NCBI GenBank assembly: GCA_021828405.1
Contig: JAKARZ010000002.1
Location: 1-64,000, forward strand
DNA: 64,000 bases
Origin: Bacillota bacterium
GTDB lineage: Bacteria; Bacillota_E; Sulfobacillia; Sulfobacillales; JAIMBI01
Direction of reading: 5' to 3'
Part shown: piece after piece, positions 1 to 34,013 of the stretch
Numbering within the stretch: position 1 is the stretch's first letter
Layout: each line of letters starts with the position of its first letter
The notes under the pieces: generated by a model
Seen by the model: the letters and a program-made list of their open reading frames with translations, nothing else
Told to the model about the DNA's origin: nothing
The model's database searches: none
Made by a program: the position numbers and the translations under genes

Positions 1-2048
1 TTGACTTTTTCCCGCTGACCGTTGACTTCGAAGAGCGGCTCTACGCCGTGGGTAAGATTCCCGGAGGATTCATCAAGCGCGAGGGACGCCCCTCGGAGAA
101 AGCCATCCTGGCCGCCCGCCTCACGGATCGCCCCATTCGTCCACTCTTTCCGGAAGGATTCCGCAACGATGTCCAGATCGTCGCCACCATCATGTCGGTG
201 GACCATGACCACAGCCCCGAAGTGTGCGGCATGATTGGGGCCTCCGCCGCCCTTGCGATTTCAGACATTCCCTTCGAGGGCCCGATGGGCGCCGTGGAGA
301 TGGGCCTCGTGGGTGACGAATTGGTTGTCAATCCCACGGTCGCCGAACAGAGCCTGAGCCACCTGAAACTCATGGTGGCCGGGACCGCGGACAACATCTT
401 GATGATTGAAGCCGGAGCGGACCAGATCCCGGAAGCGCGGGTCCTGGACGCGATTTTCCGCGGGCACGAGGAAATTCGCCGCATTGTGGCGGCGCTCACG
501 GATTTCCGGGACGCGGTGGGCAAGCCCAAAGGCAACTACAAGCTTTACCTCCCGGATGCCGAACTGACCATGGCTGTGGAGTCCCTGGCCATGGAGCCGC
601 TGCGCCAGGCGTTGCGCGAGGCCGACAAGCTGGCTCGCGAGGCCGCAATCGACGACGTCAACCGCACGGTCACCGCGGCCGTCTTGGAGAAGCATCCGGG
701 TCAGGACAAGGAGATTCAGAACGTCTTGAAGCACCTCCTGAAAAATGAGGTGCGCCGGGCGATTATTCAGGACCACATTCGGCCCGACGGACGCGGGCTG
801 GCCGAAATCCGACCCATCACGGTAGAGGTGGGGGTGCTGCCCCGGGTTCACGGCACCGGGCTGTTCACCCGCGGCCAGACACAGGCCCTGACCGCTCTGA
901 CACTCGGGACGCTGCGGGACCAGCAGATGCTGGATGGCATCGGGTTGGAAGACAGCAAGCGCTACATTCACCACTACAACTTTCCGCCGTTCTCAGTCGG
1001 CGAAGCAGCGCCGCTGCGCGGCCCCAGTCGGCGGTCCATCGGCCACGGCGCTCTGGCAGAGCGTGCCTTGGAGCCGGTGATTCCGCCGGTTGAGGAATTT
1101 CCCTACGCCCTCCGGCTCGTGTCGGACATCCTGGAGTCCAACGGGTCGACCTCGATGGCCTCGGTTTGCGGCAGCACGCTGGCCCTTATGGATGGCGGGG
1201 TGCCGATCAAGGCCCCGGTGGCCGGCGTCGCCATGGGCTTGGTGAAAGAAGGCGACGGCTACGCCGTTCTCACCGACATTCAGGGGCTGGAAGACGCGCT
1301 CGGGGACATGGACTTCAAAGTGGCGGGCACTCGGGAGGGCGTGACCGCCATCCAGATGGACATCAAGATCCATGGCCTTGAGCGCCGTATCCTGGAAGAA
1401 GCGGTAGAGCAGGCGCGCCTGGGTCGGCTGTTCATTCTGGACAAGATGCTCGCCGTCATGCCCGCGCCCCGCCCCGTGATGTCGGCATTTGCGCCCCGCA
1501 TCACCACGCTCCACATCGAGGCCGACAAGATCCGCGAGGTGATTGGCCCCGGGGGCAAAACCATCAACAAGATCATCGAGTCCACGAAAGTAGGCGAGAA
1601 GAAAGTCGCCATTGACATCCAGGATGATGGCACGATTTACGTCGCCGCCGTCAACCAGGAGTCGGGCGAGCGGGCCATCCGCATGATCGAGGACCTGACG
1701 CGGCGCATAGAACCCGGCCAGATTTACGATGGCAAGGTGACGCGTCTCATGAACTTCGGGGTGTTCGTGGAGCTGTCCCCGGGCAAGGAGGGCTTGGTCC
1801 ACATCTCGGAGCTTGCCCACCACCGCGTCGAACGCGTGGAGGACGTCGCCAGCGTCGGCGATCCCCTGCGGGTGCAGGTGAAGGAAATTGACCACTTGGG
1901 CCGGGTGAATCTTTCTCACCGCGCCACGCTGCCGCCGCCAAGTCCGGAGGAGCAGGCCCGGGCGGAGAGCGGGCATCCGCACCCGCCGCGCCCGGCTCAC
2001 CGCGAGGACCGGGGGCCGCGCCGAGGGCCGCCGCGCCGAGAGCCTTAG
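1..2048 (+). CDS. pnp: Polyribonucleotide nucleotidyltransferase (PNPase), 5' end outside window
   Basis: The frame is open from base 3, so the true start lies upstream and only the N-terminal few dozen residues are missing. PNPase degrades RNA 3' to 5' by phosphorolysis in the cytoplasmic degradosome. The visible part has the first RNase PH-like domain ([18 protein letters not shown] near the window start), the linker helical domain, and the second RNase PH domain. A KH domain follows with the [11 protein letters not shown] loop around base 1540, then an S1 domain at about 1720-1930 ([20 protein letters not shown]). The last 40 or so residues are a basic, Arg/Pro-rich tail. The downstream order ylxY, M16 peptidase, ymxH is the same as in Bacillus, which supports the assignment. 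Confidence 0.97.
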
Positions 2049-19668: not shown

Positions 19669-20993
19669 GCCGACTGCCTGACGCCCACACCATTTGGGAG
19701 GCGGCTAAAAGCCTCGGCCTCAAGCCCTGGCCAGTGCAGTGCGAGCAGGTGCCCGCGTCGGTGCTGTACGAGTTCGCGGCCTATCTGGTGCCCGGCCGGA
19801 TGAGTCACTGGAGCTACGGCAAGGCGTTTTATGCGATGAAAACCCGCTATGATTACGGCCTGGCCAAGCTTTACGAAATGGTGGTCAACGCCAATCCGGC
19901 CTACGCCTTTATGCTGGATACCAACACGCCCCTGGAAGACGTGTTCGTGATGGCGCATGTCATGGGACACGTGGACTTCTTTGCGAACAACCAGTGCTTT
20001 CGGTCCACCCCCGCCGACATGCTGGAGCAGATCGCCCGCCACGCCGAGCGGGTGCGCCAGTATCAATTTGCCCATGGAAGCGCGCGCGTGGAGCAGCTGC
20101 TGGATGCCGCGCTGGCTCTGGCGGACCACGTCGACTGGCCGTCACCCGACACGCGCCCTGGGGGGCGCTCCCCGACCCCGGCCGACACATCCCGCGACAC
20201 GTATGGAGACCTAGGCCCCGGACCGGTCGCCTCGGAGCGCGCCGTGAAGCCCGTGGAGGCCAACCCGGACGTCCTGGGCTTCTTGGCGCAGCACGCGCCG
20301 GATTTGGAAGACTGGGAGCGGGACGTGCTGTCCATGGTCCGGCGCGAGATGCAGTACTTTTGGCCACAGATCCGCACCAAAATTATGAACGAAGGGTGGG
20401 CCACCTACTGGCACGCCCGCCTGATGCGGGTGCTGGACCTGTCCGATGCCGATGCGGTGGACTTTGCTCGACTGCACGCCTCCGTCCTGCAGCCGGGCCC
20501 TATGGGCCTCAATCCCTATTTGGTGGGCTACAGGATCTTTGAGCATCTGAACACCAGCGAGGGACCGGACGCGGTGTGGCTTGCCCGCGAGGTGGATGAC
20601 GACGTGTCGTTTATTCGCAACTATTTGACGGAGGACTTGGTCGAGTCGCTGGACCTGTATACCTGGGGCATTCGCCACGACCAGGTCGAGGTAGAGTCCA
20701 CCTCCTGGCAGGTGGTGCGCCAGCAGCTAGTCCGGGAGCTGACTCACGGCGGCATTCCTGTGCTGCACGTCGAAGACGGCGACTTCAACCGACGCCGCGA
20801 GCTGTATCTCATCCACCGGCACGAGGGCCAAGACTTGGACATTCCCTACGCGGAGCGCGCGCTGCGGCACGTCGCCACCCTTTGGGGCCGGCCGGTCCAT
20901 CTCGAGACCCGCCTGCTGGACGTTCCCAGCGGCTTGACCCGCCGCGTCGTCCTGTCCTATGACGGCAAGGCCAACACCAAGGTCATGCTCTGA
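19665..20993 (+). CDS. spoVR: SpoVR family protein
   Basis: A 442-residue SpoVR protein, needed for normal spore cortex in Bacillus. Typical segments are GRMSHWSYGKAFYAMKTRYDYGL, YAFMLDTNTPLEDVFVMAHVMGHVDFF, and NEGWATYWHARLM. The middle stretch (about residues 165-185) is variable and Pro-rich. ATG 19665 overlaps the yhbH stop by four bases, so the two are coupled. The partner prkA lies downstream behind two opposite-strand ABC genes. Confidence 0.95.
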   Translation: MSRLPDAHTIWEAAKSLGLKPWPVQCEQVPASVLYEFAAYLVPGRMSHWSYGKAFYAMKTRYDYGLAKLYEMVVNANPAYAFMLDTNTPLEDVFVMAHVMGHVDFFANNQCFRSTPADMLEQIARHAERVRQYQFAHGSARVEQLLDAALALADHVDWPSPDTRPGGRSPTPADTSRDTYGDLGPGPVASERAVKPVEANPDVLGFLAQHAPDLEDWERDVLSMVRREMQYFWPQIRTKIMNEGWATYWHARLMRVLDLSDADAVDFARLHASVLQPGPMGLNPYLVGYRIFEHLNTSEGPDAVWLAREVDDDVSFIRNYLTEDLVESLDLYTWGIRHDQVEVESTSWQVVRQQLVRELTHGGIPVLHVEDGDFNRRRELYLIHRHEGQDLDIPYAERALRHVATLWGRPVHLETRLLDVPSGLTRRVVLSYDGKANTKVML

Positions 20994-20996
20994 GTG

Positions 20997-21022
20997 TGGC
21001 GGCCTGCATCACAAGGCCGCCA
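20997..21022. terminator. Bidirectional hairpin between spoVR and the ABC genes
   Basis: TGGCGGCCT (20997-21005) pairs perfectly with AGGCCGCCA (21014-21022) around an 8-base loop. It sits in the convergent gap and the stop codon of the ABC gene (21009-21011) is in the loop. No T-tract is seen on either strand. Confidence 0.6.
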
Positions 21023-24561: not shown

Positions 24562-24924
24562 ACGGGCAGCACCTCTTCCACGGGTTGGACCCGGCAATTC
24601 CTAACCAAGTTAACAGAATAGCAGACTGTGCCCATTCGAGCATCATGCGCGGGAAGGTCCCCGGGTCGCCGCTCGCGCGGGTTGCTCCCCGATTGTCCAC
24701 ATGTGGCGAAGGATGCCGCAGGTGGGTGCGCGCGCCGACGGTCCCAGGATCCGCCGTTCGAAAGCCGTCACGCGCGGTCGGGCCCCGCATACCTTGTAAC
24801 ACTCACCCTGGGGGCTCTGCTCGGCGGCCGTGGGAGCTTTGGCGTCCGCTGACGGGCCTCGGTGGGCAGGGGAGGCGGCAGGACATCAACGAGCCCACCG
24901 AATGCGCCGAAGGAGGGGATCCCG
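24562..24924. other. Divergent region between the ABC pair and prkA
   Basis: Holds the upstream regions of two divergent units and no supported gene. An AT-rich patch at 24600-24625, including GTTAAC, may belong to the ABC promoter. A sigma-E-like promoter for prkA is proposed at 24767-24795. Confidence 0.5.
24767..24795 (+). promoter_or_regulatory. Candidate sigma-E-type promoter of prkA
   Basis: CATACCTT at 24788-24795 matches the mother-cell sigma-E -10 consensus CATACAnT at all but one defined position. GTCACGCG at 24767-24774 stands 13 bases upstream and shares GTCA with the -35 consensus. In Bacillus prkA is a sigma-E gene. This would give a 5' leader of about 125 bases. Confidence 0.45.
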
Positions 24925-25917
24925 ATGGATGCGGCAGCGCTGCAGGAACGATTGCGGAGGTGGCGAGCCCAGGAGGCCGAGCTGCGCTGGACCGGCACGT
25001 TCTGGGAGTATTTCGACCGCGTGCGCGAGAATCCGCGCCTGGCGCGCCTCTCACATGCGCGCGTGTACGACCTTATTGCCGACGCTGGCGTGGAGGAAGG
25101 CTCAGAAGGGCCGCGCTATCTCTTTTTCACCGACGAACTGTTTGGGCTAGAGCGCACGTTGAGCCAACTTGTGGACTACTTTCACTCCGCCGCGAGGCGC
25201 CTGGAGGTGCGCAAGCGCATCCTGCTGCTGATGGGACCCGTCGGGGGCGGCAAGTCAACCTTGGTCACGATCCTGAAGCGTGGACTGGAGTCCTACTCAC
25301 GCACCCCAGCGGGCGCGCTGTACACGATTGTCGGCTGTCCTATGCACGAAGAGCCCCTTCATTTGATTCCCGGGCCCCTCCGCGCGGAGCTGGCTGCCGA
25401 GTACGGCCTCTACATCGAGGGCGACCTGTGCCCCGTGTGCCAGCACCGCTTGGAAACGGAATGGGGCGGGGACATTGACCAGGTGCCCGTGGAACGCCTG
25501 GCGTTGGACGAAAAGCATCGCGTGGGCATTGGCACGTTTGCGCCCAGCGATCCCAAGTCGCAAGATATCGCCGAGCTCACCGGGAGCATTGATTTGGCCA
25601 CGGTGGGGGAGTACGGCAGTGAGTCGGACCCTCGCGCGTATCGGTTTGACGGGGAGCTCAACATCGCGAACCGCGGTTTGATGGAGTTCATCGAGTTATT
25701 GAAAAGTGACGAGAAGTTTTTGTATGGACTCTTAACCCTGAGTCAGGAGCAGAGCGGGATAAAACCTTGTCGCGCGAGTGGCCGAAATGCCTACGGTCTT
25801 TCAATTGCGTCTCTGCCGCCCGAGGGCCGAAGCCCGGCACCGATGGAGCCGGGACCCAGACGGGAGGGGAGGGGCGCGTCGGCCGACAGGACGCCCGCCC
25901 GGACGAGCGCCCAGTAG
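24925..25917 (+). CDS. prkA: PrkA serine protein kinase, N-terminal half, interrupted at codon 277
   Basis: The first 277 codons (to 25755) are the N-terminal AAA-like half of PrkA: FWEYFDRVRENPRLARLSHARVYD, the P-loop GPVGGGKSTLV, GCPMHEEPLHLIP, CPVCQHRL, and the SIDLATVGEYGSESDPRAYRFDG segment. ATG 24925 follows AAGGAGGGG. Homology stops inside LLTLSQEQS. From there the frame runs on through 53 foreign codons into the inserted element and stops at 25917, giving a 330-residue product without the C-terminal kinase-like half. That half, starting with the same QEQS, is found at 32931-34013. The parts join in frame through a 12-bp repeat, so this is a split gene and not a decayed one: both halves are otherwise intact. 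Confidence 0.93.
   Translation: MDAAALQERLRRWRAQEAELRWTGTFWEYFDRVRENPRLARLSHARVYDLIADAGVEEGSEGPRYLFFTDELFGLERTLSQLVDYFHSAARRLEVRKRILLLMGPVGGGKSTLVTILKRGLESYSRTPAGALYTIVGCPMHEEPLHLIPGPLRAELAAEYGLYIEGDLCPVCQHRLETEWGGDIDQVPVERLALDEKHRVGIGTFAPSDPKSQDIAELTGSIDLATVGEYGSESDPRAYRFDGELNIANRGLMEFIELLKSDEKFLYGLLTLSQEQSGIKPCRASGRNAYGLSIASLPPEGRSPAPMEPGPRREGRGASADRTPARTSAQ
25744..25755. repeat. attL: Left attachment core, 12-bp direct repeat
   Basis: CAGGAGCAGAGC here is repeated exactly at 32931-32942. The bases on both sides differ (T and G here; C and A at the right copy), so the identity is exactly 12 bp. It encodes QEQS of PrkA and forms the left boundary of the intervening element. Confidence 0.92.
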
Positions 25918-26192
25918 TCAATCCGATGCACGGCCGCGACCAACGCATCCGGTAGCGGCCGGGGCACGCCCGAGCCAATCACATCGAGTCCCGGACCCGC
26001 AATCCGGCGCTCCAAATCCGGGGGAGCCGGCGGGATGGGCCGCGGCGCCCCGGCCTGTCGGCCTGGCACACAGATCACCTCATCACGGCATATGCGGGCG
26101 GCCCCGCCGCGTTGCCAGCGCAGGGGGAGGGGCGCACCAGGCCGGCAGGATTCGTCTCCCCTCCGCGCGAACACCTGCGCGGAAGTGATGCG
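25918..26192. other. Left end of the element, no confident gene
   Basis: No recognised gene. A minus-strand open frame (26174-25791) contains a plausible-looking stretch (DALVAAVHRIDYWALVRAGVL) but has no family signature or clear ribosome site, and it overlaps the tail of the interrupted prkA. It may be a small uncharacterised gene or the end of a decayed one. Confidence 0.25.
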
Positions 26193-26588
26193 ATGAACCC
26201 ACGTGCGGACGGGTCCTCCTCGGACTCCCGGCAGCTATGGGATCGCCTTTACGAGGAGGAGACTCGGTGGCTCGCCGACTACCTCGGCCGGTCGGCCCCG
26301 GCGGAGGCGGTCCCCGATCTCGTCCAGGAGGTCTGGTTATCGTTCTGGGCGGCGCGCGATCGGCACCAAGACACCGGACGGCGCCGGGGGTTCTTGCGCC
26401 GACTGGCGGATCGCCGCACGGCGGATTGGCATCGCGCCACCGAGAGGAGGAGGACCGTGCAGCCCCAATTCGCTCATTCCTGTTTGACCGAGGACCCTGA
26501 CCGGCCCGACGTCCCTGCACCGCCAGACGAGTTTTTGCGCGCCAGACGGCGCGCGCGGACCCGATCCGGGGGGAACCGCCGTGGCTAA
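26193..26588 (+). CDS. Short sigma-factor-like protein with region 2 only
   Basis: A 131-residue protein. LWDRLYEEETRWLADYLGR, then PDLVQEVWLSFWAARD and RRGFLRRLADRRTADWHR, resemble region 2 of ECF sigma factors (the DLVQEVFLRLW segment and the DNA-melting helix). A region 4 DNA-binding domain is absent: after about residue 90 the sequence becomes Arg/Pro-rich and ends. It may be a truncated ECF sigma factor, or a regulator that binds core polymerase only. ATG 26193 has GGAAG 8 bases upstream. Its stop overlaps the start of the MFS gene, so they are coupled. Confidence 0.5.
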   Translation: MNPRADGSSSDSRQLWDRLYEEETRWLADYLGRSAPAEAVPDLVQEVWLSFWAARDRHQDTGRRRGFLRRLADRRTADWHRATERRRTVQPQFAHSCLTEDPDRPDVPAPPDEFLRARRRARTRSGGNRRG

Positions 26589-27870
26589 CGCTGGTACTGT
26601 CCCCAGGGCTCCGTACCGACGCTTGCTCCGTCGACGCCCCTTTCTCCTGCTCTGGGCGGGGAGCGCCGTCTCTAACCTCGGGGATCACTTTTTTGCGCTG
26701 GCGCTGATGTGGTTTACGTATGCCGCCACCCGGTCCTCGCTCGAGGTGGCTGCCATCGCGGTGGTGTTTCAGTTGACCTATGTGGCGGTCGGGCCGGCCG
26801 CGGGAGTGTTCGCGGACCGCTGGGACCATCGCCGGACCATGATCGTGTGTGATGGAGCGCGGGCCGCGATCCTCAGCGCCTTCGCCCTCATCACCTGGCG
26901 GGCGGGATTCTCCTTTCCCCTGGCCTTAGTGGCTGTCTTCCTGCTTGAGTCCGCTGGGCGATTTTTCGGGCCCTCTCGGTTGGCGTATATCCCGTTCTTG
27001 ATTGAGCGCGACGACCTGGCGACGGCCAACGGTCTTTTCACCGGGACCCGCCAGGCGGCGGGTCTCGGGGGCCAAGCCCTCGCGGGACTGATGATTTCCG
27101 GGGTGGGAGCGCTGGCGGGCTTTGTGGTGGATGCCGTCTCCTTTGTGCTGTCGGGTCTGGCCCTGACCCTCATCCGACCTCCCCGCGCCCCTGAGGCAGG
27201 ATCCCCGACGGTCAGCAGCTACCCCAAAACCTCGCGTCACGGTTTCTGGTCGGAGCTGCGAGAGGGATATCAGGTCCTCGTGGGGATCCCGATGATCCGC
27301 GCGCTGCTGCTTTTCGCGGCGTTCTCCAACGCCGCGTTCGCCATGATCGAGCCCGCGATGCCGGCCTACATACGGACGACTCTCCACTCCGGAGCCTGGG
27401 CCTATGGACTCGTCGGCTCATTCCAGTTTGGTGGGACTCTCTTGGGAGGGTTCCTGGCGGGCGAGATCGCCGCCCGACTCCGAGCTGGCCCCCTCATGGT
27501 GGCCGCAACCGCCTTCGACGGTGCCGCCCTCGTGGCGGCGGGGGTTGTGCACGTGGTCCCGGTGGCCCTGGTGCTGTGGGGGTCGTGGGCGTCCGCGCTG
27601 GCCGTCATAGGCGTGGTGGAGCAGTCGTTGGACCAAGCGCTCATTCCCCGGCAGCACATGGCCCGGGTCATGGCCCTGATGTCGTCGGTGGGCATGGCCC
27701 TGATGCCGGTGGGATCCTTGGTCGGGGGCTTGCTGGCCGGCCGGATCGGCGCGGCATCGCTGTACGTCTTCGTGGGCCTTGGCTTCGTCGCCATGGCCAC
27801 CGCCATGTTGCTGCACCCGACGCTCCGGTCGACCTCGGTCAGCGGTGGAGGAGGAACACCAGATTCCTGA
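26581..27870 (+). CDS. MFS transporter (element cargo)
   Basis: A 429-residue major facilitator with about 11-12 hydrophobic segments. The start RRPFLLLWAGSAVSNLGDHFFALAL and the loop FADRWDHRRTMIVCDGARA (the inter-helix 2-3 motif) place it among the Bcr/MDR-type drug or metabolite exporters. GTG 26581 overlaps the stop of the sigma-like gene. A second MFS protein of similar architecture is encoded at 44734-45978 outside the element. The substrate is unknown. Confidence 0.88.
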   Translation: MANAGTVPRAPYRRLLRRRPFLLLWAGSAVSNLGDHFFALALMWFTYAATRSSLEVAAIAVVFQLTYVAVGPAAGVFADRWDHRRTMIVCDGARAAILSAFALITWRAGFSFPLALVAVFLLESAGRFFGPSRLAYIPFLIERDDLATANGLFTGTRQAAGLGGQALAGLMISGVGALAGFVVDAVSFVLSGLALTLIRPPRAPEAGSPTVSSYPKTSRHGFWSELREGYQVLVGIPMIRALLLFAAFSNAAFAMIEPAMPAYIRTTLHSGAWAYGLVGSFQFGGTLLGGFLAGEIAARLRAGPLMVAATAFDGAALVAAGVVHVVPVALVLWGSWASALAVIGVVEQSLDQALIPRQHMARVMALMSSVGMALMPVGSLVGGLLAGRIGAASLYVFVGLGFVAMATAMLLHPTLRSTSVSGGGGTPDS

Positions 27871-28035
27871 CGCCGATTTGAACAGGCGTCGGCCCCATCA
27901 GTGGCCTATAGACCCCCGCCCCGGCAAGCGCGCCCGGTCCTATCCGCACCGCTCACACCACCGCCTGGCCGACGAATCCGAGGCCACGGAGGCAGGGAAC
28001 GCGGCCAAAATGCCTGAAACTCTCTGCGACTCCCG

Positions 28036-28392
28036 TCAGGGCGGGTTCTTAGCCATGTCGGCGAGGATCTGCTGGAGTTTGCGGAGAATCCCCGGGACAT
28101 CCCCCTGAACGGTCTCCCAGACGATGGTGGGATCCACGTGCCCATAGTCATGAACGACCCGATGACGGATGCCGGTGACCGCAGACCACGGCACCTCGGG
28201 ATACCGCGTGGTCCAGCGGCGATTCAGATGGCCGGCGGCCTCGCCTAACACGGTGAGGTTCCGCAGCACGGCGTCAAAGAGGAGTGTGTCGCTCATGAAC
28301 TCCAGGGCCGTGCGGCCCTCACAGTACCGGATGATTTTCTCGCACGCCATCACCATGTCGGCAAGGTAGACACGGGGGTTCTTTTCTGCCAT
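28036..28392 (-). CDS. hepT: HepT-like HEPN-domain toxin
   Basis: A 118-residue all-helical DUF86/HEPN protein. The RX4H ribonuclease motif is RHRVVH at residues 76-81, followed by DYGHVD, as in HepT toxins. The ATG overlaps the mntA stop by one base, the usual arrangement of MntA/HepT type VII toxin-antitoxin modules, in which MntA adenylylates HepT to silence it. Carriage on an excisable element fits a role in keeping the element in the vegetative chromosome. Confidence 0.88.
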   Translation of the reverse strand: MAEKNPRVYLADMVMACEKIIRYCEGRTALEFMSDTLLFDAVLRNLTVLGEAAGHLNRRWTTRYPEVPWSAVTGIRHRVVHDYGHVDPTIVWETVQGDVPGILRKLQQILADMAKNPP

Positions 28393-28712
28393 CAGGCGTG
28401 GACCCGTGCCGGGAAAATCGGCACCAGCTGTTGTTGGACCTGCTCGCGGATCACGGGATGGATTTCCCGGAGGGTGTGCATGTCGACGGAGCGCCCCTCG
28501 AAGATTACCGACAGCCGGTCCTGAATCGCCAAGAGCCGAAGGAAGCCCACTCGCTGGTCGGCGGCAAATTGCACGACCAGATCGATGTCGCTCCCCTCGG
28601 CAAAATCGGCCCGCGTGGCAGACCCAAACACCGCCAGGGACTCGATATGTTCCTGCCGACAGATTCCCGACACATCCGTGAGATGTCGCTCCACAACTGG
28701 TGCCAGCACCAT
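28392..28712 (-). CDS. mntA: MntA-like nucleotidyltransferase antitoxin
   Basis: A 106-residue minimal nucleotidyltransferase. The GSX10DXD motif is exact: GS at residues 30-31 and DID at 42-44 (GSATRADFAEGSDIDL), with a further Asp in RSVDMHTL. It is the upstream partner of hepT and would add AMP to the toxin. ATG 28712 follows GGGAGG. A possible -10, TATATT, lies about 40 bases upstream on the minus strand. Confidence 0.88.
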   Translation of the reverse strand: MVLAPVVERHLTDVSGICRQEHIESLAVFGSATRADFAEGSDIDLVVQFAADQRVGFLRLLAIQDRLSVIFEGRSVDMHTLREIHPVIREQVQQQLVPIFPARVHA

Positions 28713-28779
28713 CCCGCCTCCCTTCCGCCGCTAGGAATCCGCTAAGAATATACTAGTGCGCCCGGCGCCTCCGGTCACG

Positions 28780-28843
28780 TCCGAAGTCGTCGCGGAACGG
28801 TCGGTGCTCCCTCCTGAGGAAGAGAGGGGTTTCAGACTTCGGA
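28780..28843. repeat. Spaced inverted repeat upstream of mntA
   Basis: TCCGAAGTC at 28780-28788 and GACTTCGGA at 28835-28843 are perfect 9-bp inverted arms 46 bases apart, in the 283-base gap between mntA and the ABC permease. Role unknown; a long hairpin terminator for a transcript coming from the right is possible. Confidence 0.4.
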
Positions 28844-28995
28844 GCGCCGCGTCAAGAGCCGACCCCATGCAGAGTCCCGGATTCCCGGTGAGGCGTCGCC
28901 CTCCTCGTGAATGCATGGACGCCTGGTCGCCGTGGCTCACCCGCCTCGGGCCGTGAGCGTTCTCGGGTCGTCACGGCTCCGCACGGCCCTCGGCC

Positions 28996-29700
28996 TCAGC
29001 GTCCGCTGACGTAGGTCCACCGAAGGATCCACCCGACCAGCGCCCCCAGGCCCAGGATCCACCCTAACAGTCCTAAGTCGGCCGAAGGCGGGGCGTAATG
29101 GCCGGCAAACCCTGCGTGCAGGGCCGTGGCCGCCAGCAGTGACGGGAGCCCGTGCAGGAGCGCGTGCAGCAGCGGGGCCCGTGAAAAGTTTGCGGCCGTG
29201 AGCGTAGCGAGAAACAACACCAGCATCACCACGGTTGCGAGCATGTGGCCGGCGCGGCTGGAGGGGCTGGCCATCCCGATCGCCACTCCGATGAGCGTCG
29301 CCGGCAGGCCACTGCCCACCATGGCGACGATGAGCGGCAGAGTCCAGGCCAGCGCACCGTGATTGACCGCGAAGACCAGTACCTCACTTGCCAAGGCCAG
29401 GACGGTAACCAGCAGCGTTTGCACGGCAATCAGCCATCCGATCGCCACCGCTCCGAGCTGCAGCGGCGCCCACGTGCCCTGCTCCCGTTCTTCCAGCCAA
29501 TGCCCCGACGCGAGCAGGAGTCCCGTCATGAGCTGCGCAAACACCAGCCAGACGGGGCTGAGCGGCATGGGAGGGCCCGTGTGGAGGACCGCCCAGGCGA
29601 GGCCGGTGGGCAGCGCGACCATGAGCCACATCATCACGTTGCGCCCAAGGTCATGCGCCCACTCACGCGAGACGGCGATAAGGACACGCATAGGGATCAT
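28996..29700 (-). CDS. ABC-2 type membrane permease (element cargo)
   Basis: A 234-residue protein with about six hydrophobic segments (WLMVALPTGLAWAVL, LVFAQLMTGLLLASG, LIAVQTLLVTVLALA, and others) and the loop HWLEEREQGTWAPL. This is typical of ABC-2 permeases of the NatB/drug-exporter class. Its ATG overlaps the stop of the ABC ATPase gene (ATGA), so it is the membrane partner of that ATPase. The substrate is unknown. Confidence 0.8.
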   Translation of the reverse strand: MIPMRVLIAVSREWAHDLGRNVMMWLMVALPTGLAWAVLHTGPPMPLSPVWLVFAQLMTGLLLASGHWLEEREQGTWAPLQLGAVAIGWLIAVQTLLVTVLALASEVLVFAVNHGALAWTLPLIVAMVGSGLPATLIGVAIGMASPSSRAGHMLATVVMLVLFLATLTAANFSRAPLLHALLHGLPSLLAATALHAGFAGHYAPPSADLGLLGWILGLGALVGWILRWTYVSGR

Positions 29701-30551
29701 GCCTCCTGTCGCCGGGTGAAGCGGCGGTAGACGTCGTCGAGGGTGCCGGTGGTCTCAATCTGCAGCACGCGATGCTGCGCCACAATCTGCTGGATGAACT
29801 CCATGGTGCCCGGGTCGCCGAGGCGGGCCTCCCCTTGGCGGAGCACCCCGGATTCCCACCAGTGGATGCGCACGGTGCGGTGCGGCAAGCGGTCGATCAG
29901 CGCGGCGGGCGCATCGAGCGCGACCAGCGTGCCGCGGTCCAGAATGCCCACCCGATCACACAGGGTGGCCGCCTCAACCATGTCGTGGGTGGTGAGCAGA
30001 ATAGCAACCCCCGCGTGGCGCAGGGCGCGGAGTGTGTCATAGACGGCGGCGGCGGCATGTGGATCCAAGCCACTGGTGGGTTCGTCGAGGAAGAGGACGG
30101 GGGGGCGACCGAGGAGCGCCCGGGCCAGCATGGTCCGCTGGCGCCAGCCCTTGGAGAGGCCGCGCACAGCCCGATGCCGATATTGCTGAAGGTCGAACTG
30201 CTCAAGCGCCGCTGAAATGTGCAAGCGGGGCAGTCCGCGGAGAGCCGCCGCCATCCGCAGATTCTCTTCCACCGTGAGCCGCGGATACAGCGCGGGCAGC
30301 TCGAACACCACGCCGGCCGACCGCACGACCGCACGCCGCTCGCGCACAACATCATGCCCGGCTATGGTGGCCGTGCCGGATGTCGGGCGCAGGAGTCCCG
30401 CCAACATGCGGACCGTGGTGGTCTTGCCGGCGCCATTGGCGCCCAACAGCCCGAACACTTCCCCGGCCGCGACGCTAAAGGACAGGTCTTGCACGAGCGC
30501 GTCCGGCCCGATCCGCTTCGCCAAGTGCGCGGCGTCAATCATGCCCATCAT
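29697..30551 (-). CDS. ABC transporter ATPase, CcmA/NatA type (element cargo)
   Basis: A protein of about 284 residues. Walker A is GANGAGKTT, the signature is LSKGWRQR, Walker B is VLFLDEPTSGLDP, and the switch His is in LTTHD. The C-terminal 70 residues form the extension common to ABC-2 ATPases. ATG 30551 overlaps the padR end by 17 bases; ATG 30548 and 30542 are alternatives. The regulator-ATPase-permease order suggests a PadR-controlled efflux system. Confidence 0.9.
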   Translation of the reverse strand: MMGMIDAAHLAKRIGPDALVQDLSFSVAAGEVFGLLGANGAGKTTTVRMLAGLLRPTSGTATIAGHDVVRERRAVVRSAGVVFELPALYPRLTVEENLRMAAALRGLPRLHISAALEQFDLQQYRHRAVRGLSKGWRQRTMLARALLGRPPVLFLDEPTSGLDPHAAAAVYDTLRALRHAGVAILLTTHDMVEAATLCDRVGILDRGTLVALDAPAALIDRLPHRTVRIHWWESGVLRQGEARLGDPGTMEFIQQIVAQHRVLQIETTGTLDDVYRRFTRRQEA

Positions 30552-31062
30552 CCAGCCCCCGCTCATGCGCCAGGGTGTCGAGCCAGTCGTGCTCCTCAAG
30601 GATCTGGTGCCGCTGAAACTCCAGCACCGCGCGTGACCAATACGTGTCGCCCGGCCACGCCGCCACCGTCTCGAAGTGGACAAGTTCCGCGGCCAGCCAC
30701 GCCCGGCGCTGAGCGAGCAAGTGGTGCTGCGCGGCCGTGGGGATGAGATGCCAGAGGGAGAGGCTCAAAAAGAACCGACGGCGGTCTGCGGCATTCTTGG
30801 GATCTGCCACGAGATCCTGCAGTAGCCGCCGCCCTGCGGCAGTCACGCCGTACACCTTGCGGTGGGGCGCCCCGGGGCGGGGAGACGGCTCTAGGTGCGA
30901 CGCCACCGCACCCTGTTGCTCCAGACGCCGGAGCGTGGAATACAGGCGCCGTGTATCAAAGGTTTCATCGGGTCCAATCGCACGGTCGGCTTCGTCCAGC
31001 AGGTGATAGCCGTGTTTGGGTTCGGGAAGGAGCAGGGTCAGCACCACCGTCTCATTAACCAT
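30535..31062 (-). CDS. PadR-family transcriptional regulator
   Basis: A 175-residue protein with a PadR winged helix (LLLPEPKHGYHLLDEADR, RLYSTLRRLEQQGAV, RKVYGVTAAGRRLLQDL) and a C-terminal dimerisation helix pair. ATG 31062 is chosen because AGGAGG lies 7-8 bases before it; the upstream ATG 31086 lies inside the proposed operator. It is the first gene of the minus-strand ABC operon and most likely represses it and itself through the dyad at 31080-31099. Confidence 0.88.
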   Translation of the reverse strand: MVNETVVLTLLLPEPKHGYHLLDEADRAIGPDETFDTRRLYSTLRRLEQQGAVASHLEPSPRPGAPHRKVYGVTAAGRRLLQDLVADPKNAADRRRFFLSLSLWHLIPTAAQHHLLAQRRAWLAAELVHFETVAAWPGDTYWSRAVLEFQRHQILEEHDWLDTLAHERGLDDGHD

Positions 31063-31079
31063 GGCACACCTCCTATGCG

Positions 31080-31124
31080 TCATCACTCATATGTGATGAT
31101 ACTCCGGTACTTCGGAGCGCGCAA
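31080..31124 (-). promoter_or_regulatory. Promoter and PadR operator of the element's ABC operon
   Basis: On the minus strand TTGCGC (31124-31119) and TATCAT (31101-31096) are 17 bases apart. A perfect dyad, TCATCAC-6-GTGATGA (31080-31099), overlaps the -10. A bound PadR dimer would block the polymerase. Confidence 0.65.
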
Positions 31125-31317
31125 GGCTTTGCAGCTTGGCCGCTCGTGATCCTAACCGGCTATTCCGGCGAAGATCCGCGCGCCAGCATGGCAAGTCGGC
31201 CCGCTAGCTGCCATAAGCTCACTGCGGCCCGACGAGGCCGTGTACCGCAAAAAGCTCACGTAGGTGGCACGGCGCGGATCGAACAGGAACTGGGAATCGG
31301 GTGACGAAGAGGGACAC

Positions 31318-32901
31318 ATGGCCACATACGTGATTTACACGCGGGTCTCGACCGAGGACCAGGCACGGCAAGGGTTTAGCCTGCCCGAGCAAGCGATCGC
31401 CTGCCGGCGGCGTGTGGAGCAACTGAGTGCGCAGAGCGCAGACGCCTCACCGGCAATCGTCGAGTTCACCGATGACGTCTCGGGCGATTTTCTCGAGCGG
31501 CCAGGGCTGTCGGCCGCCTTGGCGCTTGTGCGCACGGGGCAGGTTGTGGCGTTCGTCTGCATGGATCCCGACCGCCTGGCCCGGAAGCTCCTGCATCAGC
31601 TGCTCATCACTGACGAGATTGACCAGGGCGGTTGCAAGCTGGAGTTTGTGGACCACGACTACCGGCAGGACGCCGAGGGGCAGCTCTTCTACCAGATCCG
31701 CGGGTCCGTGGCCCAGTACGAGAAAGCGAAGATTCTCCAGCGGATGGCACGCGGCGCCCGCGGCAAAGCACGCGCGGGCGGAGTCCCCACGTACGTGCAC
31801 CCATATGGCTACGCCTTTCAGGCAGGGCAGGGCCATGCTCCGGCGATCGAGGTCATCGTGCCGTCGCCTGAGGAATCCCGCTGGGTGGACACCATGTTTC
31901 ACTGGTGCGCCGACGAGGGACTGGGGCCGAGTCAGATTGCGGCCCGCCTCAACCAGCTCGGCGTCCCGGCGAAGCGGGGCGGCACGTGGGATCAGAACGT
32001 CGTGCGCCGCATCCTCCGGAATCCCACCTACGCGACCGGACTGATCGCCTGGGGGCGACAAGACCACCGCGGCATCTACGCGGCACGCCGCCTCGCACCC
32101 AGCGAACGGCGCCGGCGCCGGATCCGCCTCACGCCTGTGCCCCGCCCCGACAGCGCCGCCGTCCTGCGCGTGCGCGCCCTTCTGAGCCAAGATCTCTGGG
32201 ATCGCACTCAGGAGGTCCTGGCGGGCTTCCGCGTCGGCGACCGTGCGCACAACGACCCCCGGCGGAAGCGCCTTTTGACCAGCCTCGGCCGGTGCGGCGT
32301 CTGCGGCAGCCGCCTCATGTACTATTCGGGTGGCAAAATCAGTTGTCAGGGTCGCCTGGCCGGGAACGGGTGCGCGCTTCCCTCGAAGCAAGCCGCGGCC
32401 GTGGAAGCGGCGGTGTGGGCCCACGTCCAGACCTGGCTCGCCGAAGGGCTAAAGGCGGTGCCGCCCCGTCCGCCCAGCTCCCCTGCGGAGCCGACCCCGC
32501 CCCGACAGGAGCGAGCGGCGCTGGAGCACCTCATCATCCACAAGCAGCAGGAAGTGGAACGGTGGGGACACCTCTTCGCCGAGGGGCGGGTGCCGGAATC
32601 GATTGCGCTCCCGGCCCTGACGAATGCGCAGGCGGCGTGGCGCCAAGCCGAACAGCGGCTGGCGGTGCTCGCGGCGCCGCGCGCGCTCCCTGCCCCGACG
32701 CCGTCACGCTGGGCCGAAACCCTGGCGCGAGCGCGGGAGGAGGGCGCCGGGGCGGAGTGGCCGGAGGCGGAGCGCGCCGCCGTGGTGCATGGCTTGGTGG
32801 CCCATTTTGTGCTGCGGCCGAGCCCCCGCCGCACCCCTCCGCAGGTGGAGGTGATCGCGGTCTGGGATGCCGCCCTGAATCCCGCGCCCCGCAAGACGTA
32901 G
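31318..32901 (+). CDS. Large serine recombinase of the prkA-intervening element
   Basis: A 527-residue large serine recombinase. The resolvase domain begins MATYVIYTRVSTEDQ, with nucleophile Ser11; the conserved Arg segment DRLARK and the long helix follow. The recombinase domain (VHPYGYAF) follows, and then a zinc ribbon with two Cys pairs (CGVC and CQG..AGNGC) from about residue 325. A helical coiled-coil-like segment (about 395-455) is next, and a basic tail. It is of the same type as SpoIVCA (skin) and SprA (SP-beta). ATG 31318 has GAGGGA 4 bases upstream. It reads in the same direction as prkA and ends 29 bases before the right core, so it is the obvious enzyme for integration and excision. 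All catalytic parts look intact. Confidence 0.93.
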   Translation: MATYVIYTRVSTEDQARQGFSLPEQAIACRRRVEQLSAQSADASPAIVEFTDDVSGDFLERPGLSAALALVRTGQVVAFVCMDPDRLARKLLHQLLITDEIDQGGCKLEFVDHDYRQDAEGQLFYQIRGSVAQYEKAKILQRMARGARGKARAGGVPTYVHPYGYAFQAGQGHAPAIEVIVPSPEESRWVDTMFHWCADEGLGPSQIAARLNQLGVPAKRGGTWDQNVVRRILRNPTYATGLIAWGRQDHRGIYAARRLAPSERRRRRIRLTPVPRPDSAAVLRVRALLSQDLWDRTQEVLAGFRVGDRAHNDPRRKRLLTSLGRCGVCGSRLMYYSGGKISCQGRLAGNGCALPSKQAAAVEAAVWAHVQTWLAEGLKAVPPRPPSSPAEPTPPRQERAALEHLIIHKQQEVERWGHLFAEGRVPESIALPALTNAQAAWRQAEQRLAVLAAPRALPAPTPSRWAETLARAREEGAGAEWPEAERAAVVHGLVAHFVLRPSPRRTPPQVEVIAVWDAALNPAPRKT

Positions 32902-32923
32902 CACCTCTATGTTGTCTCGGAAC

Positions 32924-32942
32924 CTGCTCCCAGGAGCAGAGC
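32924..32942. repeat. attR: Right attachment core within a perfect dyad
   Basis: CAGGAGCAGAGC (32931-32942) is the second copy of the 12-bp core. It overlaps a perfect dyad, CTGCTCC-CA-GGAGCAG (32924-32939), whose centre is the CA at 32931-32932, the first two bases of the shared core. This fits serine recombinase crossover at a central dinucleotide flanked by inverted half-sites. Confidence 0.88.
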
Positions 32943-34013
32943 ATCAAGACGGGACGCTTCTCTCTCATTTACGCAGACGAAGTGATCGTCAGTCACACCA
33001 ACGAGGCAGAGTACCAGCGCTTCGTCGAAAACGACAAGAACGAGGCTCTGCGCGACCGCATGATTTTGATTCGGGTGCCTTACAATCTTCGGGTGGGCGA
33101 CGAGGAGCGCATTCACGATAAGCTGATTCGCGAGTCGGGCCTGGAAGGCGTCCACCTGGCGCCGCACACGCTCCGGGTGGCCAGCATGTTCGCGGTCCTC
33201 TCCCGGCTGCATGAGTCCAAACGCCAGGGCTTGAACTTGGTGAAGAAGCTGAAACTCTATGACGGCCTGGCGGTTGAGGGCTTTACCGCCAAGGACGTCA
33301 AGGAGCTGAGGGATGAGCATCCGAACGAGGGAATGGCGGGCATCTCCCCGCGCTACATCATCAACCGGCTGTCCACGGCGCTGGTGCGGCCCGGTGTGCG
33401 CTGCATCAACCCCATCGACGCACTCCGCGCCCTGAAGGACGGGCTGGAGCAGCACACCGGCTTCTCTCACGATGAGAAGGAACGCCTCTTGAACCTCATC
33501 TATGAGACGCGCCGCGAGTACGACGAGATGGCCAAGGTCGAGGTGCAGAAGGCGTTCGTGTACTCGTTCGAGGCCTCGGCTCGATCCCTCTTGAACAACT
33601 ACTTGGACAACATTGAGGCGTACATCAACAAAACCAAGCTGTCTGATCCGCTGACGGGTGAGGAGCTCGAGGCGGACGAGAAGCTGATGCGCAGCATCGA
33701 GGAGCAGATTGGCGTCACGGAAAACGCCAAGCGCGCGTTTCGCGAGGAGATTTTGATTCGCATCTCGTCGCTGGCGCGCCGCGGCCAGTCGTTCGACTAC
33801 ACGTGCCACGCCGGGCTTCGGGAAGCCATCGAAAACAAGCTGTTCAGCGACCTGAAAAACGTCGTGAAAATCACCACGTCCACCAAGACCCCCGATCAGG
33901 AGCAGCTGAAGAAGCTAAATGACGTGGCCGCCCGCCTGATGAGCGAGCATGGCTACTGCCCGGAGTGCGCCAACGCCATCCTCCAGTACGTGGGGACCCT
34001 GCTCGCGCGCTGA
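32931..34013 (+). CDS. prkA: PrkA serine protein kinase, C-terminal part, separated by the element
   Basis: From QEQS the frame continues IKTGRFSLIYADEVIVSHTNEAEYQRF, IRVPYNLRVGDEERIHDKLI, and the PrkA C-terminal kinase-like domain (SPRYIINRLSTAL, ISSLARRGQSFDYTCHAGLREAIENKLF) to the usual end. It is 356 residues after the junction, with no stop or frameshift. There is no start codon with a ribosome site at the junction, so it cannot be expressed properly until it is joined to the N-terminal half. The frame remains open back to 31905 through the recombinase gene, but in the wrong frame and without meaning. The retained purity of this half implies it is under selection, which is expected only if the full gene is regularly rebuilt. 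Confidence 0.93.
   Translation, partial: QEQSIKTGRFSLIYADEVIVSHTNEAEYQRFVENDKNEALRDRMILIRVPYNLRVGDEERIHDKLIRESGLEGVHLAPHTLRVASMFAVLSRLHESKRQGLNLVKKLKLYDGLAVEGFTAKDVKELRDEHPNEGMAGISPRYIINRLSTALVRPGVRCINPIDALRALKDGLEQHTGFSHDEKERLLNLIYETRREYDEMAKVEVQKAFVYSFEASARSLLNNYLDNIEAYINKTKLSDPLTGEELEADEKLMRSIEEQIGVTENAKRAFREEILIRISSLARRGQSFDYTCHAGLREAIENKLFSDLKNVVKITTSTKTPDQEQLKKLNDVAARLMSEHGYCPECANAILQYVGTLLAR

Follow-up and report, generated by a model that had tools for sequence, protein, structure and literature searches.

The prkA gene of a Bacillota bacterium (assembly GCA_021828405.1, contig JAKARZ010000002.1, positions 1 to 64,000; this 64,000-nucleotide stretch is hereafter the window) is split by a 7.2-kb DNA element that carries a large serine recombinase (LSR). 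The insertion is real, precise and LSR-bearing. Judging from its sequence, the element very probably belongs to the sporulation-gene-intervening elements, with gin, the element found in gerE, as the nearest one. We consider it probable, at roughly two chances in three, that it is a gin-like (gerE-type) element that is excised in sporulation and that has prkA as a new target. No described prkA-intervening element was found in the openly licensed literature searched, which agrees with the preliminary description of the window, where prkA had been proposed as an apparently new target of such elements.

The split of prkA and its empty site

The gene starts with an ATG at position 24925, and its frame extends to codon 277, with the 12-mer CAGGAGCAGAGC at 25744–25755 as its last bases. 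Over both strands of the window, only two copies of this core are present, the second one at 32931–32942. Joining the N- and C-terminal parts at the core yields an open frame of 633 codons with a stop at 34011–34013; in the unjoined N-terminal part, the frame continues for 53 foreign residues into the element. The N-terminal part matches positions 2–260 of the Pfam AAA_PrkA profile, and the C-terminal part matches positions 258–356 together with the complete PrkA C-terminal domain. The break therefore lies inside the AAA domain, and no part of PrkA is lost. Repeat search, translation and Pfam thus confirm the split prkA, the 12-bp flanks and the joined frame of 633 codons that had been described previously. 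The distance of 7,187 bp given there is the size of the unit, 7,175 bp plus one 12-bp copy. The features that define the split are the following:

24925–25755, + strand: prkA 5' piece, codons 1–277 including the left core copy (frame translation, Pfam)
25744–25755, + strand: left 12-bp core copy CAGGAGCAGAGC (attL core), single copy at the junction in relatives with a whole prkA
25756–32930, no strand: intervening element, the 7,175 bp enclosed by the two cores, absent at the same place in loci L001, L002 and L003
32931–32942, + strand: right 12-bp core copy (attR core), which with the preceding bases reads CTGCTCC-CA-GGAGCAG, identical in the element of genome G004
32931–34013, + strand: prkA 3' piece, codons 274–633 counting the core copy, followed by the stop (frame translation, Pfam)

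A scan of the named genome contigs with the joined PrkA protein returned 19 loci. Three of them, from Bacillota metagenome-assembled genomes (MAGs), contain a whole 633-codon prkA in the same gene neighbourhood, with identities of 97% (L001), 96% (L002) and 95% (L003). BLAST comparison of the window with these loci breaks exactly at 25755/32931 with a 12-base overlap, and the gene is uninterrupted over 1,899 bp in the relatives. At the junction point, the 12-mer is exact in L001 and L002 and has one base changed in L003. Since prkA is whole and the core single in the three loci, the insert represents a clean addition with a duplicated core. Two features expected of a sporulation-gene-intervening element are therefore found: a sporulation gene whose two parts rejoin as one open frame, and a short direct repeat at the break that is single in the empty site.

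The same base has been hit in a second genome. In G004 (MAG DS3.bin47), the N part of the split prkA lies on L005 and the C part on L004, immediately preceded by an LSR of 535 residues that is 60% identical to that of the window. Both have the same 16 bases, CTGCTCC-CA-GGAGCAG, at the right core, and none of the 53 cargo open reading frames (ORFs) of at least 40 residues located before the LSR in the window has a match in the available DNA of the G004 element. Among the 42 genomes of the order, an LSR of the window group was found in G004 only, the next best being at most 42% identical. A host tree built from six regions places G004 with G001, which has a whole gene, with a support of 100, and the window apart. 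The synonymous divergence (dS) is much greater for the LSRs (1.42) than for prkA (0.47 and 0.57). Because G004 clusters with the intact G001, away from the window, the two insertions look independent, and the simplest reading of the sequences is that related recombinases that know the site made two independent, site-directed insertions. An uninterrupted prkA and the same insertion point, the two things that the preliminary description had proposed to look for in related genomes, are thus both present, the latter apparently by independent insertion. An assembly artefact or chimera is scarcely credible, given the 12-bp duplication exactly at the break, the split at the same base in G004 with a related LSR, and a protein cluster (P0001, on a 26,668-base contig) that includes the same truncated product and tail with one residue different. 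Several ORFs of the G004 element (L004:1–8300) look by eye like tyrosine recombinases and a transposition ATPase, perhaps a nested second element.

Element content and comparison with known intervening elements

The proteins encoded by the element are the following:

26193–26588, + strand: 131-aa ORF, its only match being to sigma-70 region 2 (Pfam Sigma70_r2, 26.1 bits, cut-off 24)
26581–27870, + strand: MFS transporter (Pfam)
28036–28392, − strand: HepT-like HEPN ribonuclease, the toxin-like half of a HepT/MNT pair (Pfam; NCBIfam HepT_toxin below cut-off)
28392–28712, − strand: MNT-type nucleotidyltransferase, the antitoxin-like half (Pfam; NCBIfam MntA_antitoxin below cut-off)
28996–29700, − strand: likely ABC permease without a Pfam match, so assigned for its hydrophobic look and the adjoining ABC ATPase
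29697–30545, − strand: ABC transporter ATPase (Pfam)
30535–31086, − strand: PadR-type regulator (Pfam)
31318–32901, + strand: LSR, 527 aa (Pfam; PHROG integrase; 60% identical to the G004 LSR)

The large serine recombinase that had been noticed at the end of the insert, a further feature expected of an intervening element, is well supported: its Resolvase and Recombinase domains score above the Pfam cut-offs, with a Zn-ribbon match below cut-off, and it matches a PHROG integrase. XisF, of the fdxN element, and CcrB are serine recombinases by which DNA elements are excised or moved. Their NCBIfam models match the window LSR with scores (50.3 and 53 bits, respectively) well short of the cut-offs (375 and 900), which makes it a relative, and not a member, of these families. 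The G+C content of the element, 67.5%, is the same as that of the surrounding window. No phage head, tail or packaging families were found in a PHROGs scan of the eight element proteins, and no conjugation genes scored above the Pfam cut-offs in the same proteins, with a Replic_Relax match of the PadR-type regulator below cut-off. The element thus looks like a small non-phage integrative island. The earlier label 'skin-like' is a loose one, because the element has no phage structural genes and is nearer to gin in gerE.

According to the accessible passages on gin of Bacillus cereus ATCC 10987 (PMC5595907), that element likewise has non-phage cargo, an LSR and in-frame rejoining, and in both cases the core is duplicated at the break of the sporulation gene (9 bp in gin, 12 bp here). 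By contrast, gin spans 28.6 kb and has three recombinases, and both its directionality factor (GirX) and its excision are proven, whereas the window element spans 7.2 kb, has one recombinase, sits in prkA and is only predicted to be excised. Excerpts on skin in sigK, SP-beta in spsM, vfbin in spoVFB, vrin in spoVR, phi3T in kamA and yin in yabG (PMC6957869, PMC4191935, PMC10747680) describe, as here, recombinase-bearing elements in genes used in sporulation, but these are prophages or prophage-like and have other target genes. The interrupted genes named in the passages available are sigK, spoVFB (spoIVFB in one passage), spoVR, spsM, gerE, kamA and yabG (PMC6957869, PMC4191935, PMC10747680, PMC5595907), and an excerpt from 2026 deals with a phage in sigK of Alicyclobacillus (PMC13141910). 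If the proposed excision is true, prkA joins these as an excision-rebuilt gene. What also sets prkA apart from those targets is that several recombinase groups have inserted in it, at three points and in two cases with two elements at once.

Split prkA genes in other genomes

A search of 42 genomes of the order with PrkA gave a match in 41, and prkA is split in two of the 42, G004 and G031. G014, G022 and G036, where a contig ends inside prkA, and G041, with a frame change near the prkA end, were not counted as splits. The phylum survey comprised 398 genomes, with the three best candidates per genome scored and a match at E ≤ 1e-60 in 116. It revealed prkA in pieces in G044, G080, G122, G140 and G253, and a C part starting at residue 257 beside an LSR in G423; contig breaks inside prkA led us to discard G126, G132, G160, G195 and G320. 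In the family of G140 (18 genomes), prkA is split in three (G140, G253 and G441), whole in 12, fragmented in one (G442) and without a match in two. The split genomes thus total ten, the window and nine others including G004, and in all 12 of their insertions an LSR is no more than about 0.6 kb away from a piece of prkA. Truncated PrkA proteins were also considered as signs of insertion, but many of the best 120 of the 1,571 above threshold are contig-end fragments, so that truncation points are usable as leads only. Such leads are the N-terminal PrkA fragments P0090 (Alicyclobacillus contaminans) and P0094 (A. acidoterrestris), which end near residue 290, and the truncated PrkA P0059, whose contig has the same length (83,467 bases) as that of its possible companion, the LSR P0133.

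The insertions fall at three points of prkA, near residue 260 (site C), at residue 277 (site A) and near residue 290 (site B), and their LSRs form four groups. Site A is occupied in the window and G004, and P0133 is 45–47% identical to the LSRs at this site. Site B is occupied in G044, G080, G122, G140 and G253, the LSRs of which are 60–96% identical to each other, and the G441 LSR is 59–95% identical to these. G031 is cut at about residue 290 by an LSR of another group that is less than 31% identical to the others compared; its element (L054:3116–12534 and L055:1–16530) is probably a prophage because it has holin, tail and repressor matches. The site-C LSRs, from G140, G253 and G423, are 57–97% identical. 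As read by eye, the junctions of G031, G044, G080, G122, G140 and G253 rejoin in frame, and the shared cores comprise 3–8 bases at site B and 3 bases at site C; the core at site A of the window comprises 12.

In G140 (L100:2592–15449 and L101:17360–18400) and G253 (L104 and L105), prkA is in three pieces separated by two LSR elements: the N piece, the site-C element, a 34-codon middle piece, the site-B element and the C piece. The frame end of the site-C LSR of G140 overlaps the middle piece by 10 bases. With the middle piece stranded in this way, PrkA would become functional only after two separate excisions, a process that would be a bacterial counterpart, at the DNA level, of splicing two introns. 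A contig that bears the same small protein links G140 to Moorella sp. E308F, and G044 is linked to Calderihabitans maritimus in the same manner; with these matches, the question becomes testable in named organisms. We lean towards prkA being a main docking gene of spore-formers, used by phages as well as non-phage islands through at least four recombinase groups, whose three attachment points lie in a stretch of about 30 codons in the AAA domain, with a three-piece prkA in Moorella that would need two excisions in one mother cell. This repeated use, with three points and doubly split copies, is more surprising than the window insertion itself. The reuse of prkA by distinct recombinases supports the safe-harbour idea, in which mobile DNA is safe in genes that are not expressed during growth and serve only a cell that is doomed. 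Protein conservation as an explanation of the target was borne out in part only. Among 34 whole PrkA sequences, residues 222–281 make up the two most conserved 30-residue bins (0.944 and 0.916), residues 252–281 being the second; since the sliding window 262–291 ranks 83rd of 588, conservation accounts for the target choice at best partly.

The five site-B elements compared have an ORF of 58–73 codons that ends at most about 50 nt from the prkA C piece (L097:8003–8179, L099:3242–3436 and the same place in L101, L103 and L105), with a homologue at the same place in G441 (L126). Its profile has no further match in 19,608 six-frame pieces of the loci compared, and the profile search found no homologue in the window element. 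Three of the five ORFs were scanned, with no Pfam match above cut-off (best 13.6 bits versus 25) and no NCBIfam family; in a large protein collection there are nine matches at E ≤ 0.001, including Calderihabitans and Moorella/Neomoorella. Directionality factors of 53 aa in Clostridioides difficile and, putatively, of 72 aa in yin are mentioned in the available text of PMC10747680. Because its size and position fit, the ORF is a candidate recombination directionality factor. A nucleotidyltransferase and HEPN-type pair is present in both the window element (28036–28712) and the G080 element (L097:7046–7757), which have LSRs of different groups, perhaps because such pairs help to retain the elements in prkA.

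Proposed excision in sporulation and competing readings

The setting includes sporulation genes. In the window, spore_dpaB scores above cut-off, and dipicolinate synthase A, YhbH and SpoVR have matches below the cut-offs. Spo0A_C is present in nine of nine genomes tested, including the relatives G001 and G004; the control gave a match in one of 14 genomes, that of B. subtilis. A block that precedes prkA and is conserved in five of five species (GTCACG...GCATACCYTGTAACACTCAC; 24767–24806, + strand) resembles a sigma-E-type promoter. Good sporulation depends on PrkA in B. subtilis (PMC4415436) and in B. anthracis, where normal growth does not (PMC13001217). In cells that have lost PrkA, sporulation is reduced and several sporulation genes are expressed less (PMC4415436, PMC13001217). 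The assignment of B. subtilis prkA to spore formation is also mentioned in PMC4605624, which cites the work on the sigma-E regulon. Because it is dispensable for growth and needed for good sporulation in the bacilli studied, prkA would suit such elements. Given the effect of PrkA loss on sporulation and sporulation-gene expression, excision would, if it occurs, gate the sporulation programme itself.

In the proposed mechanism, the LSR would have made the insertion by recombination of attP with attB within the shared core. The LSR and a putative directionality factor would reverse it in the terminal mother cell, while the forespore would retain the element and thereby pass it on through the spore. 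During growth, cells that lose the element may be punished by the HepT/MNT pair. Reversible excision regardless of sporulation, random or stress-induced, would instead make prkA an on/off switch in the population. The anatomy seen indicates site-specific recombination only, and an excerpt on yin in yabG reports that a fraction of the population had it excised at every time tested (PMC10747680). We nevertheless regard such a switch as quite improbable, because prkA is used in sporulation and because, in the other cases described in the passages available, excision is linked to sporulation by its timing or by the cell type.

Alternatively, an ordinary integrative element may have disrupted prkA, with a second PrkA perhaps covering for the loss and the intact halves reflecting a young insertion. 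We judge this to be unlikely, although far from negligible. No decay of the halves was seen: the prkA pieces from the window, G004, G031, G044, G080, G122, G140, G253 and G441 and the C part of G423 are free of internal stops, and no piece aligned has a frame change. The dN/dS ratio of the window versus G004 or G001 is 0.03–0.05, as between whole genes. On the terminal branches, the synonymous to non-synonymous codon changes are 33:4 for the window and 9:2 for G004 (one of the two being a join artefact), versus 22:1, 63:8 and 69:6 for the whole L001, L002 and L003 (154:15 summed). No relaxed selection was thus seen on the window branch, of which at most about 6% would be without constraint by a rough hand estimate based on four non-synonymous changes. 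Either the insertion is young or prkA is still used, as far as these sequences tell. The middle piece differs between G140 and G253 by 13 synonymous and no non-synonymous changes (12:1 path-averaged), a pattern that may be older than the insertions. Also at odds with mere disruption, when all first-look candidates were scored, G044 and G080 (E ≤ 1e-60) and G140, G253 and G441 (E ≤ 1e-5) had no PrkA match besides the pieces, so that no second copy covers there; in G122, three candidates only were scored. Furthermore, four recombinase groups in one short stretch of one sporulation gene are hard to square with harmful insertions.

Several observations weigh against excision in sporulation, and some of them favour plain disruption. 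An intact second PrkA homologue of 46–47% identity is present in four of four close relatives (G001–G004), so that loss of the split copy might be tolerated. A second prkA together with decayed halves had been named beforehand as evidence against excision; no decay was seen, but the second, diverged PrkA exists in these relatives. Plain decay of prkA does occur in the family of G140, since the gene of G442 (L128) is in several frames with no element found. No directionality factor was recognised in the window element. Before the window LSR there is one loose −10-like match, CATAAGCT, which is not common to G004, and no mother-cell-type promoter motif before the LSR is common to the two. The wider search for a mother-cell promoter gave no common pattern over the 11 LSRs examined, and only the site-C LSRs of G140 and G253 have a common upstream sequence, CATAAAAT. 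The predicted circle junction is absent from viral_contigs, a weak test, and neither the PrkA C piece nor the window LSR has relatives there. The prkA pieces share a contig in the window, G044, G080 and G140, but are found on different contigs in G004, G031, G122, G253 and G441, the elements of which are therefore not seen end to end; the same applies to G423, where no N part was found in the phylum survey.

The branch test bounds the unconstrained share of the window branch only, and the insertion could be recent. Split copies are patchily distributed among the relatives and interleaved with whole ones, both in the host tree and in a 27-sequence tree; selection in the split state is thus unproven, as most of the divergence may predate the insertions. 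Ancient vertical inheritance of the site-B element was considered, as the five-taxon LSR and PrkA trees agree, but the wider tree disagrees: the 27-sequence tree, which adds the whole genes of the family, has whole and split copies side by side, with weak support inside Moorella. This result and the gap between the LSR (dS 0.31) and prkA (dS 0.10) in G253 versus G441 led us to drop the claim of selection on a long-split gene.

Outside the element, about 4.6 kb separates spoVR from an ABC transporter pair in the relatives (L001:1436–6080, L002:1535–6081 and L005:1403–6066), a stretch that the window is without (20993–21016).

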